Assembly: GCA_938038145.1 (NCBI GenBank) | Contig: CALHQU010000043.1 | Location: 1 to 10,323 of the forward strand | Direction: 5' to 3' | Length of the DNA: 10,323 nt | DNA from: an uncultured Candidatus Saccharibacteria bacterium | Lineage (GTDB): Bacteria > Patescibacteriota > Saccharimonadia > Saccharimonadales > Saccharimonadaceae | Shown here: positions 2 to 9,046 of the stretch, in pieces | Layout of the letters: every line of letters begins with the position of its first letter | How positions within the stretch are numbered: the stretch's first letter is position 1 | Position numbers and translations under genes: made by a program | Notes under the pieces: generated by a model | What the model was told of the DNA's origin: nothing | Database searches by the model: none | The model's input: only the letters and a program-made list of their open reading frames with translations

Positions 2-949
2 TACTTTTTCAAGCAATTGGCGGACTTCGTCGGTCGTTGTGGTGTGCATCAACTGTTCGCGTAGTTCTTTGGCGCCGTCAAAATCGCGAATATAAATCTT
101 GAAAAAACGTTTTAGAGTCTCAAAAGGTCGCCCTAAAATCGGCTGGTAAGAATCAAATAAATCCAAGTGATAATTAAGAAGCGCCAACAGTTCTTCTTTA
201 TGATTCTCTGAGTCAGTTTTCGATTCGCGGAAGCAGAACGGATCACTGAAAACGCCTCGCCCAATCATAATTCCATTCACGCCAGGATGTTTTCTGGCAA
301 TTTCCAGCCCATGCTCTCGGTCGCGAATGTCGCCGTTGATAGTCAGGAGCGTTTGTGGGGCAATTTCATCGCGCAGTTTAACAATCTCGTCAATCAATTC
401 ATAATGCGCCGCAACTTTGCTCATCTCTTTTTTCGTGCGCAGATGAATTGTCAAGTTCACGATGTCTTGCTTGAGGATTATCGTCAGCCACTCGCGCCAT
501 TCGTCTACATAAGTATAGCCCAGTCGAGTTTTTACGCTAACGGGCAATCCAGATTTTTTGGCGGCGTCAATTGCAGCTATCGCTATGTCGGGTCGACGAA
601 TCAGAGCCGCACCGCCGCTTTTAATGGCAGACTTGGCGGGACATCCCATATTGATATCAATTCCGTTAAAACCAAGTTCCGCGCAGTGTTTAGCGAAAGC
701 TTCCATATCCCCTGGCTCGCCACCCCAGATTTGCGCAATCAGCGGCTGCTCATCGTCGGTTTTAATTAATCGCCCAGCTATGGCTTTGTCGCCAGCGTGA
801 ACCCAGCCGGTAGCATTTGCGAACTCGGTGAAAAATATATCTGGTGCGCCAGCCTGTTTCACGACATGACGAAACACGACGTCGGTGACGGCTTCCATTG
901 GTGCCAATATGAAAAATGGCTGCGGTAAATCATTCCAAAACGATGTCAT
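2..949 (-). CDS. dus: tRNA-dihydrouridine synthase (3' end off the window)
   Basis: This is an FMN- and NADPH-dependent enzyme that reduces uridine to dihydrouridine in tRNA D-loops. I translated the minus strand from the ATG at 949 and obtained 316 residues without a stop, running off the left edge; family members are usually about 310-350 residues, so only a short tail should be missing. The N-terminal FMN-site motif reads LAPMEAVTD (about residue 15). The catalytic cysteine motif is NMGCPAK with Cys103, followed by SGGAALIRRP. VSVKTRLGY (about 135), TIHLRTKKEM (about 167, the family HGRT site written HLRT), INGDI and GIMIGRGVFSDPF complete the barrel pattern. An extended -10 box lies 7 nt before the ATG and no Shine-Dalgarno is visible, so the mRNA may be leaderless. 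Family assignment is secure; which tRNA position it modifies cannot be told. Confidence 0.93.
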   Translation of the reverse strand, partial: MTSFWNDLPQPFFILAPMEAVTDVVFRHVVKQAGAPDIFFTEFANATGWVHAGDKAIAGRLIKTDDEQPLIAQIWGGEPGDMEAFAKHCAELGFNGIDINMGCPAKSAIKSGGAALIRRPDIAIAAIDAAKKSGLPVSVKTRLGYTYVDEWREWLTIILKQDIVNLTIHLRTKKEMSKVAAHYELIDEIVKLRDEIAPQTLLTINGDIRDREHGLEIARKHPGVNGIMIGRGVFSDPFCFRESKTDSENHKEELLALLNYHLDLFDSYQPILGRPFETLKRFFKIYIRDFDGAKELREQLMHTTTTDEVRQLLEKV

Positions 950-956
950 CTCTGTT

Positions 957-965
957 ATTTTATCA
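957..965 (-). promoter_or_regulatory. extended -10 promoter of the dus gene
   Basis: On the minus strand the bases read TGATAAAAT, an extended -10 element (TG, one base, TAAAAT). It ends 7 nt before the ATG at 949, which would place transcription start at or next to the start codon. There is no recognisable -35 box. The box lies only 1 nt downstream of the T-tract of the preceding terminator, so one unit ends and the next begins within a few bases. Confidence 0.6.
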
Positions 966-966
966 C

Positions 967-1003
967 AAAAAAGGAAAAACCCTATCTCATCATTGAGATA
1001 GGG
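967..1003 (-). terminator. intrinsic terminator of the microprotein/tRNA-like unit
   Basis: A perfect 10-bp hairpin has arms CCCTATCTCA (980-989) and TGAGATAGGG (994-1003) with a 4-base loop. On the minus strand it is followed by TTTTTCCTTTTTT (979-967). This is a textbook Rho-independent terminator for transcripts coming from the 1590 side. On the plus strand no T-run follows the stem, so it acts in one direction only. Confidence 0.9.
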
Positions 1004-1037
1004 TGTGGGCGGGCTCAAGCGGTTCTGCTCGGAGTAA

Positions 1038-1083
1038 TTCTCAACGTTGAGAAAAACTGCCACGAGTGAACTCGCGAACCTGA
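1038..1083 (-). other. hairpins in the 3' part of the unit
   Basis: Between the tRNA-like gene and the terminator lie a 16-base perfect palindrome (1038-1053, TTCTCAACGTTGAGAA), a small CGAG/CTCG hairpin (1063-1074) and one copy of a 10-base repeat (1074-1083, TCAGGTTCGC on the minus strand). I find no credible reading frame here. The elements are consistent with a structured 3' segment of one RNA; no known RNA family was recognised. Confidence 0.4.
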
Positions 1084-1091
1084 AACTGGGA

Positions 1092-1121
1092 GGGAAGCAA
1101 AACGCCTTTGTTTTACTTCCC
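1092..1121 (-). other. 12-bp hairpin directly behind the tRNA-like gene
   Basis: Arms 1092-1103 and 1110-1121 pair over 12 positions in the minus-strand RNA, with one G-U pair, around a 6-base loop. The stem begins 3 nt past the presumed discriminator base of the tRNA-like gene. No T-run follows, so it is not a normal intrinsic terminator. A stable stem this close to a tRNA 3' end could affect 3' trimming or protect a processed end; that role is inference. Confidence 0.5.
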
Positions 1122-1124
1122 CAG

Positions 1125-1216
1125 CGGACACAGCGGGACTCGAACCCGCAACCTCCCACTACGCCGACATCGTTGTCAACGCGGCGGGTGCTCTACCATT
1201 TAAGAGCTATGCGTCC
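1125..1216 (-). tRNA. tRNA-like gene with a 24-nt anticodon loop
   Basis: The minus strand folds as a tRNA. The acceptor stem is GGACGCA (1216-1210) with TGTGTCC (1132-1126), one G-U pair. The D-stem is GCTC/GAGC around a 10-base loop with GG at the 18/19 site. The variable loop is AGGTT, and the T-arm is GCGGG-TTCGAGT-CCCGC, fully canonical. The discriminator is G1125 and CCA is not encoded. The anticodon stem CCCGC/GTGGG pairs, but it encloses 24 bases (1160-1183) instead of 7, and D-loop position 14 is T instead of A. Inside the long loop, CGTTGACAACG can form a mini-hairpin and TTGACAA looks like a Val(GAC) anticodon loop, but its flanks do not pair as a stem. Removing 17 bases from the loop at any point does not give a 7-base loop with T33, so a simple intron is not supported. 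It may be an extended or processed tRNA, a tRNA-like processing signal, or a decayed gene. No amino acid is assigned. Confidence 0.6.
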
Positions 1217-1340
1217 TGTGATTCTTTTCTGGTCTACCAGCTGGGCGAACCTGACCCAGGGACGGACGTCCTTTACTGACCGCGGAGATCAGTGGTTTCG
1301 GTGTCGCGCAAACCTCTACCGCCATGCCACGGAAAAATAG
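1217..1340 (-). other. structured spacer between microprotein and tRNA-like gene
   Basis: This stretch has no credible reading frame but at least four hairpins on the minus strand: CTGG/CCAG (1229-1240), CTGGG/CCCAG (1241-1259), CTGATC/GGTCAG with one G-U pair (1276-1292), and GGTTT/AAACC (1294-1314). It carries two GGTAGA motifs resembling a tRNA D-arm (1231-1240 and 1313-1322) and a TCAGGTTCGC motif resembling a T-arm (1245-1254). It could be a decayed tRNA, part of a larger structured RNA, or an mRNA 3' UTR. I could not match it to RNase P RNA, SRP RNA, tmRNA or a T-box. Confidence 0.4.
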
Positions 1341-1493
1341 TCAGGCGTTCTTACCTCCACACTGGAGGCACACCTGACCGCTACCACCGCAGTTGTCGCA
1401 GCGGTAGCCGAGTGACTTCTTGCCAGTTCCCTGGCAAGATGGACACGTTTTCGTACCTGAGTAGCCCATGTTGCTACACGGTCTACATGACAT
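1341..1493 (-). CDS. 50-residue protein with four CxxC motifs (DnaJ-like zinc finger)
   Basis: The ATG at 1493 opens a 50-residue frame ending with TGA at 1341-1343. It holds eight cysteines in four CxxC pairs: C3/C6 (CRPC), C17/C20 (CPSCQGTG), C32/C35 (CDNCGGSG) and C42/C45 (CLQCGG). Two pairs are full CxxCxGxG motifs, the signature of the DnaJ central zinc-binding domain, which binds two zinc ions through four such motifs. There is no J-domain or other part, so the protein is essentially a free-standing zinc domain. The start is fixed by GAGGTGA (1507-1501) 7 nt upstream; the other ATG at 1488 is followed at once by TAG. A chaperone-like or RNA-binding role is inferred from the fold only. 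It lies in one apparent transcription unit with the tRNA-like gene. I am confident it is a real gene, less so about its function. Confidence 0.8.
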   Translation of the reverse strand: MSCRPCSNMGYSGTKTCPSCQGTGKKSLGYRCDNCGGSGQVCLQCGGKNA

Positions 1494-1500
1494 GAGATTT

Positions 1501-1507
1501 TCACCTC
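1501..1507 (-). promoter_or_regulatory. Shine-Dalgarno site of the 50-residue protein
   Basis: GAGGTGA on the minus strand, 7 nt before the ATG at 1493. The GAG part (1507-1505) is also the end of one arm of the hairpin at 1505-1525, so that hairpin can partly hide the ribosome site. Confidence 0.75.
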
Positions 1508-1584
1508 TTTTCTAAAAGAAAAGAGTTGACCTCCTAATTATGCTCCTAGAGAGCATAATTCGAAAAGTCAGCTCTACCAATAAA
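1505..1584 (-). promoter_or_regulatory. hairpin-rich leader, possible cis-regulatory RNA
   Basis: The leader RNA, read on the minus strand, has three helices. Outer helix P1 pairs GAGCTGAC (1574-1567) with GTCAACTC (1530-1523), with one C-A mismatch. P1 encloses a perfect 10-bp hairpin (1536-1545 with 1551-1560). Hairpin B is a perfect 8-bp stem (1505-1512 with 1518-1525) overlapping the Shine-Dalgarno. P1 and B share bases 1523-1525, so they compete. A second purine-rich AGGAGG (1536-1531) has no start codon close behind it. This fits a switch controlling translation of the zinc protein, but no known riboswitch class was recognised. Confidence 0.45.
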
Positions 1585-1590
1585 GCGTTT

Positions 1591-1596
1591 ATTATA
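1591..1596 (-). promoter_or_regulatory. -10 box upstream of the leader
   Basis: A perfect TATAAT on the minus strand (1596-1591); a second TATAAT lies 15 bp upstream (1611-1606). No good -35 match is seen at 16-18 bp. Transcription would start near 1584, just before the leader helices. No clear terminator separates this from the helicase gene, so read-through is also possible. Confidence 0.4.
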
Positions 1597-8055: not shown

Positions 8056-8982
8056 TTATCTAGCTTCTTTTGAAAGCGGCTCTATATTCGACAGCTCGCG
8101 AATTCTTTTATTATACCAATCATTCAGCTCGGCGCAATGCTCCCAATTGTATCGGCCTAGCCTATTACAGATATTTTTAACAAATTCTTCATCTTCATAA
8201 AGAGTGACATCCATCTGGTTAAGAGATTCCTCTGCGACGTCGGCTATGGCTACATTCTTGTTTTCATTAAGGCGTGCTTGCATAAGTTTTGCCCACAGTA
8301 CGGCATAACAGGTCTGCATTAAAAACTTAGCTTCGCTTGCCGAGTCAAACGGATCCTCCTCTGGTTGATTTTGTTTGTCGCCGTAGACGTTATCTGTATA
8401 TGTTTTGTTTCCTTTAAAAGTAAGTTCTACATCCCATACTTCATCTTTCAGTCTTCGGTAGGTTTCTTCACTGTTAATGATAGCGTCTGCTTCCTGAATT
8501 TTTTCATTTCCGGCGAGGCGCTTTGCCTTGTCTTCCGCTGCTTCAGCTTCAAGGATTTCTTTTGGTATGTTGTCTAGGGTGTCTGTTACTAGCGGATAAC
8601 TTCCAATAACCCCACCAATAATGTTGTCAGTGACAGTTATCTCTTGATTGTAGTGTCCGCGCATAGCTCGCGCCCAAGCTGCCTCTAGTTTCTTTGGGTC
8701 AGAATCAGAATCTTTATCCACGAGCACATAGACACCACCAAAATCTAATAATGCCTGATTTTCCTCTGGAGTTTCTGGGCTGGTTGGAATGGCGTTTTGT
8801 GTCAGCACTATTGCATCGCGGAAGAATACTCTATTTCCAAGGAGATCGTTTCCGTCAACTGCTGGAACTTTTTCAAGTGGGCTGTGATGAGTGAAATCAT
8901 CATAGTTTTCTAAGCTTTCCCAGCCAGTTGCTTTTTGCTCGCCTGGCACTTCTTGTTCTGGTAACTTGTCCATTTCTGTCAT
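8056..8982 (-). CDS. unknown acidic 308-residue protein
   Basis: I do not recognise this protein. It is soluble-looking, with no signal peptide or membrane segment, and strongly acidic, especially in the first 30 residues and in the Glu/Asp-rich middle. Visible stretches include GGVYVLVDKDSDSDPKKLEA, an Ala/Glu/Lys-rich helix (EILEAEAAEDKAKRLAG), and a likely helical segment AKFLMQTCYAVLWAKLMQAR near residue 225. The start at 8982 is chosen because GAGGAG lies 11 nt upstream and a consensus promoter lies further up. An in-frame GTG at 9033 would start within the spacer between -10 and -35, so it is not used; ATG 8973 is a less likely alternative. It has its own promoter, ribosome site and terminator, forming a closed cassette between the ATPase and a broken copy of the ATPase tail. 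Confidence 0.85.
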   Translation of the reverse strand: MTEMDKLPEQEVPGEQKATGWESLENYDDFTHHSPLEKVPAVDGNDLLGNRVFFRDAIVLTQNAIPTSPETPEENQALLDFGGVYVLVDKDSDSDPKKLEAAWARAMRGHYNQEITVTDNIIGGVIGSYPLVTDTLDNIPKEILEAEAAEDKAKRLAGNEKIQEADAIINSEETYRRLKDEVWDVELTFKGNKTYTDNVYGDKQNQPEEDPFDSASEAKFLMQTCYAVLWAKLMQARLNENKNVAIADVAEESLNQMDVTLYEDEEFVKNICNRLGRYNWEHCAELNDWYNKRIRELSNIEPLSKEAR

Positions 8983-8993
8983 GATATATAAAA

Positions 8994-8999
8994 CTCCTC
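8994..8999 (-). promoter_or_regulatory. Shine-Dalgarno site of the 308-residue protein
   Basis: GAGGAG on the minus strand, 11 nt before the ATG at 8982 and 20 nt before the alternative ATG at 8973. This decides for the first ATG, although the spacing is on the long side. Confidence 0.65.
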
Positions 9000-9017
9000 T
9001 TTTATGATGGTATTGGC

Positions 9018-9046
9018 ATTGTATCAGCAGCACGATTCCGTGTCAA
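9018..9046 (-). promoter_or_regulatory. consensus sigma70-type promoter of the 308-residue protein
   Basis: On the minus strand TTGACA (9046-9041), exactly 17 bases, then TACAAT (9023-9018). This is the only promoter in the window with a perfect -35 box. Transcription would start near 9011, giving a leader of about 30 nt with the GAGGAG site. The -35 box abuts the recognisable ATPase-tail remnant. Confidence 0.85.

Follow-up and report, generated by a model that had tools for sequence, protein, structure and literature searches.

A candidate structured RNA with a non-decoding tRNA-like domain between uvrD and dus in an oral Saccharibacterium

The subject of this study is a tRNA-like element on the minus strand of a 10,323-nucleotide (nt) stretch of DNA (contig CALHQU010000043.1; hereafter the window, meaning the whole stretch that was analysed) from an uncultured oral Saccharibacterium (TM7). 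We think, with a probability of about 0.7, that the sequence describes a non-decoding tRNA-like domain within a predicted structured RNA of ~600 nt, which would be transcribed as a separate unit from the uvrD-dus interval and would also carry an open reading frame (ORF) for a microprotein. The domain is most likely exchangeable and part of an undescribed structured RNA, and its tRNA shape is probably kept for a role outside translation, since it is anticodon-free and no bacterial CCA-adding enzyme was found among 23 related genomes of these tiny-genome bacteria.

That a tRNA-like element is really present, as the original prediction held, is clear from the match of 1216-1125 (minus strand) to the complete model of the Rfam tRNA family RF00005 (43.6 bits against a gathering score of 29; E value for the window 9.6e-07), this being the sole family to reach its gathering score in the Rfam scan of the window, and from a minimum free energy of -47.4 kcal/mol for the domain (z -5.40; 0 of 200 shuffles as good). 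Rfam, folding, an arm parse and comparison within the genus lead to the following predicted layout.

1125..1216, minus strand: tRNA-like domain
1216-1210/1132-1126, minus strand: acceptor stem
1207-1190, minus strand: D arm
1155..1188, minus strand: anticodon-position arm, closed in the predicted fold by 5 base pairs (bp), a 1x1 C.A mismatch, 9 bp and an ACGA tetraloop
1154-1150, minus strand: variable region
1149-1133, minus strand: T arm
1125, minus strand: discriminator G, the next bases being CTG, not CCA

The arm at the anticodon position had been read as a 24-nt anticodon loop, and indeed the stem CCCGC/GTGGG encloses 24 nt, but in the predicted fold these are not open: beyond the mismatch they form 9 bp (GCGUUGACA/UGUCGGCGU, G-U pairs included) under the tetraloop, which differs from the previously suggested CGTTGACAACG mini-hairpin with GAC at its tip. 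As modelled, the arm would be 14 bp with one mismatch and would offer no loop able to decode, and the earlier notion of an enlarged anticodon arm is supported by relatives of the same genus, which likewise have closed arms there. Position 14, read directly, is T and so not A, as had been stated, and it also proved right that no excision of 17 nt restores a T at position 33 (T33), all 8 contiguous excisions leaving G; ARAGORN found no tRNA in the window, even allowing introns up to 300 nt, and an intron-containing tRNA was rejected on these two results. Judged as a decoding tRNA, then, the window has the cloverleaf profile, yet it lacks a 7-nt anticodon loop with U33, and a 3' CCA is neither encoded nor matched by an adding enzyme of family PF01743 in the relatives. 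Judged as a substrate for RNase P, it has the 7-bp acceptor stem and the 5-bp T stem under a T-loop (8 nt long in one relative, L002). At the sequence level, an acceptor and T-stem core with its T-loop motif is kept, a closed helix takes the place of the anticodon loop, and CCA is not encoded.

Relatives were also searched for processing enzymes. PF01743 was matched in 0 of 5 and then 0 of 18 relative genomes (their completeness is not stated, and the search took in neither the archaeal class I enzyme nor the window's own genome), while 10 of 14 control genomes, which are the ten bacteria among them, gave a match. For RNase Z (TIGR02651), no match of any kind came from the 5 genomes and none of the 23 passed the cut-off of 293, a negative limited by the controls, of which 14 of 14 matched but only 9 passed and 5 missed; the weak matches of 18-21 bits in 4 of the 18 genomes lie inside ORFs of 711-731 codons and probably represent another metallo-beta-lactamase nuclease. 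RNase P RNA was found in 5 of 5 relative genomes. Of the RNase P/Z processing first proposed, cleavage by RNase P may occur, and maturation by RNase Z is unlikely.

Eight loci of the genus were compared, from the window and from seven of nine genus genomes or their named records: the window, L001, L002, L041, L043, L143, L146 and L153 (L144, of genome G107, is cut off at a contig end and G102 holds only a Dus fragment, and both stand outside the comparison). All 56 acceptor cells form standard pairs, against a mean of 44.9 with permuted partners (56 was reached in 2 of 2000 permutations). There are six distinct acceptor sequences, and at five of the seven positions both partners have changed; all 40 T-stem cells pair as well. 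Three arms are predicted in 7 of 8 loci, and the predicted arm at the anticodon position differs among them: 5 bp, a 1x1 mismatch and 9 bp in the window, 5 bp, a 1x1 mismatch, 4 bp and a tetraloop in L001 and L002, 6 bp and a 5-nt loop in L041 and L043, 7 bp and a 4-nt loop in L143, a bulged stem with a 5-nt loop in L146, and a long, irregular arm in L153. The predicted folds of these eight loci hold no 7-nt U33 anticodon loop, and a scan for T33 loops was positive in the window only.

Reading along the minus strand, uvrD (4937-1641, whose product is UvrD plus a PD-(D/E)XK nuclease) is followed by the RNA locus at ~1584-979 and then by a gene from 949 that we take to be dus, encoding a tRNA dihydrouridine synthase. 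The predicted unit runs from a leader through the ORF, a pseudoknot, the tRNA-like domain and a 3' domain to a terminator, and folding of its 371-nt stretch 1345-975 gave a z of -5.27 (0 of 100 shuffles as good). The parts around the domain are these.

1591..1596, minus strand: predicted -10 element TATAAT, read from the sequence, with no convincing -35; the inferred RNA start lies near 1584
1494..1584, minus strand: leader with a hairpin at 1536-1560 (inverted repeat I7) and a AGAGGTGA-type ribosome binding site
1341..1493, minus strand: 50-codon ORF for a zinc-ribbon-like microprotein with CxxC pairs, between leader and hairpin 1
1241..1259, minus strand: hairpin 1, whose loop GGUUC (1251-1247) is one pseudoknot strand; counterpart in 8 of 8 genus loci
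1229..1240, minus strand: hairpin 2, CUGG-UAGA-CCAG, found by eye; counterpart in 6 of 8 loci, not in L143 and L146
1217..1228, minus strand: pseudoknot strand GAAUC (1224-1220) with an AAAA linker, immediately 5' of the tRNA-like domain
1086..1124, minus strand: hairpin following the domain; L001 and L002 have an identical copy of its CAAAGGCGUUUUGCUUCCC
1010..1085, minus strand: 3' domain with the motif CAGAACC (1027-1021)
979..1004, minus strand: predicted intrinsic terminator, an 11-bp stem followed by a U run

In the genus the second pseudoknot strand ends 0-3 nt 5' of the domain (8 of 8 loci; found by eye, with no shuffle control of its own). The strands were picked by eye and paired by script, MAFFT having misaligned hairpin 1, and the pairs vary between GGUUC/GAAUC, GAUUC/GAAUC, UGAUUC/GAAUCA, UGAUU/AAUCA and GCCC/GGGC. 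Placement was controlled with a search for seven standard acceptor pairs together with a 5-bp T stem whose loop starts TTC, the whole beginning within 4 nt of the pseudoknot strand. All eight loci have this arrangement, as do 2 of 16,000 shuffled versions of these stretches. In addition, CAGAACC occurs in all eight genus tails and, outside the genus, in 2 of 62 other intervals (L087 and L102). By these comparisons, a pseudoknot immediately precedes the domain in this genus, and a 3' domain with a common motif follows it. The original prediction had offered, as one option, a tRNA-like element within a longer RNA, and this is supported, the element sitting in a syntenic structured RNA locus.

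Of particular interest is the way in which the interior of this locus is replaced between close relatives. In their best segments, the UvrD-like helicases of TM7 oral taxon 352 (L001) and of L002, a Saccharibacteria chromosome (genome G001), share 98% identity with that of the window, and identity to these two loci is, in turn, 93.9% and 94.5% at the uvrD end, 92.6% and 95.2% in the leader, 86.1% to each in the tail and 95.1% and 90.6% at the start of dus. Between these ends the figures are 65.2% and 64.9% for the nucleotide segment of the ORF, 69.2% and 66.4% for the stretch from ORF to domain, and 64.8% and 64.2% for the tRNA-like segment, when the window against shuffled L001 (5 each) gives 55-70%. 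In sequence terms, the ORF and tRNA-like segment of the window are unalignable with those of L001 and L002, near the shuffled level, despite flanking genes that are 91-95% identical. L001 and L002 themselves share 82.1% in the domain, 89.4% in the stretch before it and 68.5% in the ORF, which is not clearly shared.

Beyond the genus, the wider family was compared by synteny. Of 101 family genomes, 100 gave the gene in a search for Dus, and 94 loci were mapped, the window and five earlier-found loci included; 67 have a measurable uvrD-dus interval, the other 27 having no uvrD in the upstream stretch (23; contig end or other order), an overlap (2) or no dus (2). Seven of the 67 intervals are at most 63 nt and 60 span 245-2360 nt. 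Embedded tRNA hits came from Rfam scans of 20 loci (19 hits), 12 loci (3 new interval hits, the rest of that scan being repeats, matches below gathering and one ordinary tRNA outside the L001 interval), 17 loci (6 hits) and the window (1). All 29 lie inside uvrD-dus intervals on the strand of uvrD and dus, that ordinary tRNA being the single hit outside an interval in the scans of relatives; 19 further loci gave no tRNA hit, and the scan of G001 gave none at L002. At least one hit falls in 21 of the 60 longer intervals, and L143 is a further genus locus outside those 60. CCA follows 3 of the 29 embedded hits, against 37 of 37 ordinary tRNAs of G001, all of which ARAGORN gave T33 and a CCA end (among the loci of the best 30 of 42 places) and which serve all 20 amino acids. 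A first automatic arm parse, of poor quality, gave insertions of up to 64 nt (L065) and 71 nt (L056) at the anticodon position.

Of the 60 longer intervals, 20 have a promoter-like pair (at least 10 of 12) inside their first 110 nt, when shuffles give 0.9. The window does not belong to these 20, and a consensus promoter scan found no promoter in it. Among the 53 intervals of 245-1250 nt, 19 contain a perfect long-range helix of at least 12 bp, as does 1 of 159 mononucleotide shuffles, and 11 of the 19 five-prime arms start GACA, mostly resembling GACAGAGATAGTG. No such perfect closing helix was found in the window, so that the unity of the RNAs of genus and wider family depends on synteny and on having similar kinds of parts. 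In many intervals the variable part is enclosed by a long-range helix of GACAG..ATAGTG type, and L079 and L116 have two such pairs each, as if the unit were repeated.

Several observations weigh against the reading of the locus given here, and we set them out together. Rfam matches the domains of the window, L041, L043 and L143 but not those of L001, L002, L146 and L153, which were placed by eye, and one acceptor sequence is common to three of the eight loci (L041, L043 and L146). The predicted fold of L002 is not a full cloverleaf, its D and T arms not being separate, and L153 has no normal D arm; the T arm of L001 pairs differently in its predicted fold, and that of L153 omits the seventh acceptor pair. 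In the wider family, 39 of the 60 longer intervals lack any tRNA hit that passes gathering, the 19 zero-hit loci included. A 7-nt T33 arm can be drawn in 8 of the 29 embedded hits, one of these with CCA, and for this reason some of the eight may be real tRNAs; the same arm test passes 33 of 37 ordinary G001 tRNAs and misses 4. Even the window's arm allows a weaker 7-nt T33 hairpin (4 of 5 pairs), though not where the anticodon stem belongs. Finally, a pseudoknot 0-3 nt upstream could block RNase P.

What might such a domain do? Binders of the acceptor/T stack and of the elbow read the parts that are kept here, and the parts that are lost serve decoding and charging. The domain could present a rigid L-shape, an elbow with an acceptor/T handle, that docks a reader of tRNA elbows, most likely RNase P, and the former anticodon arm would then be a free peripheral stem. 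RNase P might cut at 1217/1216 and separate the mRNA of the microprotein from the 3' RNA, with the adjoining pseudoknot able to restrain cleavage, or the L-shape might instead act as a clamp. We propose docking of RNase P or another elbow reader because the kept parts are elbow and acceptor/T features, and because RNase P, according to a review, recognises any RNA presenting an acceptor/T stack, with non-tRNA substrates that include tmRNA and MALAT1 (PMC4919913). If our account of the domain is right, docking of RNase P specifically is a tentative proposal, rather less likely than not to be correct as it stands; a purely architectural role ranks nearly equal to it, with a decoy role behind.

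A decoy would be a tRNA mimic soaking up the tRNA-cutting nucleases or tRNA-binding factors of phages or rival bacteria, and it would account for the rapid replacement of the domain. The ORF and domain are wholly different between near relatives, there is no anticodon loop to cut, and a competitive-inhibitor role has been suggested for the tRNA-like domain of YrlA (PMC7790460); the common pseudoknot and 3' motif nevertheless imply more than a decoy, and we consider this explanation unlikely. A little less doubtful, though still speculative, is a larger scheme in which a fixed chromosomal site of Saccharibacteria houses a new class of large RNA. Between the conserved ends of this RNA, a cargo made up of the ORF for the microprotein and a tRNA mimic free of an anticodon would be exchanged like a cassette, with conflict with phages or neighbouring bacteria as the driving force and the mimic as the active part that captures a tRNA-reading enzyme. 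An origin in phages or plasmids was pursued and set aside, with no match among 50,697 phage and 72,556 plasmid records; an 18-mer had 2 viral-contig matches, estimated at about chance level, and the zinc-ribbon had 5 matches, covering 14-38 residues of CxxC-type sequence.

Three further explanations seem to us more improbable still. A tRNA pseudogene, inherited or captured beside a small ORF and drifting without function, would have no CCA and no usable anticodon, would explain why the segment cannot be aligned between loci whose flanking genes are so alike, and fits the failure of the L001 and L002 domains to register as Rfam tRNA hits. It has been suggested that relatives with a normal 7-nt loop at this locus would mark the copy as decayed: none is seen in the genus, although the 8 T33-capable hits of the wider family could form one. 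Free decay fits poorly with acceptor and T stems that pair in every cell across eight loci, with extra bases that make a 9-bp helix and with a pseudoknot strand just upstream in 8 of 8, the placement of acceptor and T-arm behind it being rarely matched in shuffles, and we regard it as improbable. More improbable again is a cis-acting leader that controls dus by mimicking the tRNA substrate of its product. A tRNA-like fold does lie upstream of the gene for a tRNA-modifying enzyme in the 21 intervals with hits, but a predicted terminator separates RNA and dus in the window, 7 of 67 loci are almost without an interval, and dus probably has its own promoter, because a -10-like hexamer lies within 30 nt of its start in 45 of 60 intervals, against 17.8 in shuffles; regulation of dus by the RNA was rejected on the terminator and this -10. 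In the window a TAAAAT hexamer (947-962, minus strand) ends 7 nt before the ATG of dus, which suggests a very short or absent dus leader. Least probable of all is a functional tRNA that decodes after special processing, whether its anticodon arm is enlarged or holds a small intron of an unusual type. The cloverleaf score is good and the T33-capable hits of the family speak for it, but no 17-nt excision yields T33, CCA is not encoded in the window, no bacterial CCA-adding enzyme appeared in the 23 relatives and G001 already has its full ordinary set, so that the once-suggested tRNA with unusual splicing has little left to recommend it.

Comparison with known systems places the locus apart from each of them. 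In tmRNA, a tRNA-like domain, a pseudoknot and an ORF are parts of one RNA. The candidate RNA resembles it in joining the same three parts, but differs in their order (ORF, pseudoknot, complete tRNA-like domain, 3' domain), in having no CCA and in pair 3-70, where the alanine identity pair G3-U70 of tmRNA is replaced by A3-U70 in the window and a G-U is found in 1 of 8 loci (L153). A tmRNA was in any case discarded as a candidate: the window has no RF00023 hit, the L001 domain scores 21.3 bits against 47, and of 10 family genomes tested, 8 carry a tmRNA that passes the cut-off, that of G001 at another place. GOLLD and ROOL are likewise large structured bacterial RNAs of unknown function, whereas this locus has no match to their Rfam models, occupies the uvrD-dus interval, is unmatched in the phage collection and bears a tRNA part that is non-decoding and behind a pseudoknot. 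No covariance match to GOLLD, ROOL or YrlA was obtained, only RF00005 reaching gathering in the window and the scanned relatives. YrlA, a bacterial Y RNA, is described as a non-coding RNA with a tRNA-like domain (PMC7790460); our locus differs in having an ORF and no YrlA match in Rfam. MALAT1, with its mascRNA, also has a tRNA-like fold within a long RNA, but the window matches mascRNA at 15.9 bits, far under the gathering score of 42.5, and RNase Z processing with CCA addition is not expected here.

Few non-tRNA RNAs contain tRNA-like domains, and those that are known revealed how cells and viruses reuse the tRNA machinery. The swaps of domain and microprotein between near-identical flanks furnish a natural series of variants for asking which part of the tRNA shape matters. 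If expressed, the RNA would add a large RNA class to a phylum for which the literature searched gave no report of one, a search of partial coverage; it likewise gave no report of a tRNA-like RNA in Saccharibacteria, of a structured RNA in Patescibacteria or of CCA-adding in Saccharibacteria, and with most subscription papers and preprints outside it, novelty is provisional.

As for the microprotein, its database relatives number 3, at 69-88% identity, and it is 50% identical to the ORF of L050, a locus outside the genus; a Pfam scan of a 49-codon frame at 1346-1492, which differs from the frame of the ORF, gave no match. Other uvrD-dus intervals code for small proteins unrelated to it. A second microprotein family, with the motif QAGS.G, occurs in 4 of 294 genomes of the order, all 4 matches lying within uvrD-dus intervals, with a query whose rows were partly supplied by two of those four genomes. 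L041 (1577-1738, minus strand) has a second tRNA-like hit of 34.4 bits followed by a third, selenocysteine-tRNA-like match of 43 bits, below the gathering score of 47. The tRNA-Gly-like hit of L109 (299-391, minus strand) has CCA and a good GCC loop, but its variable region contains an insert of 23 nt. Elsewhere in the window, a 325-residue protein at 8056-9033 (minus strand) has a sub-threshold match (23.6 against 25 bits) to Tad4, a Thoeris inhibitor.
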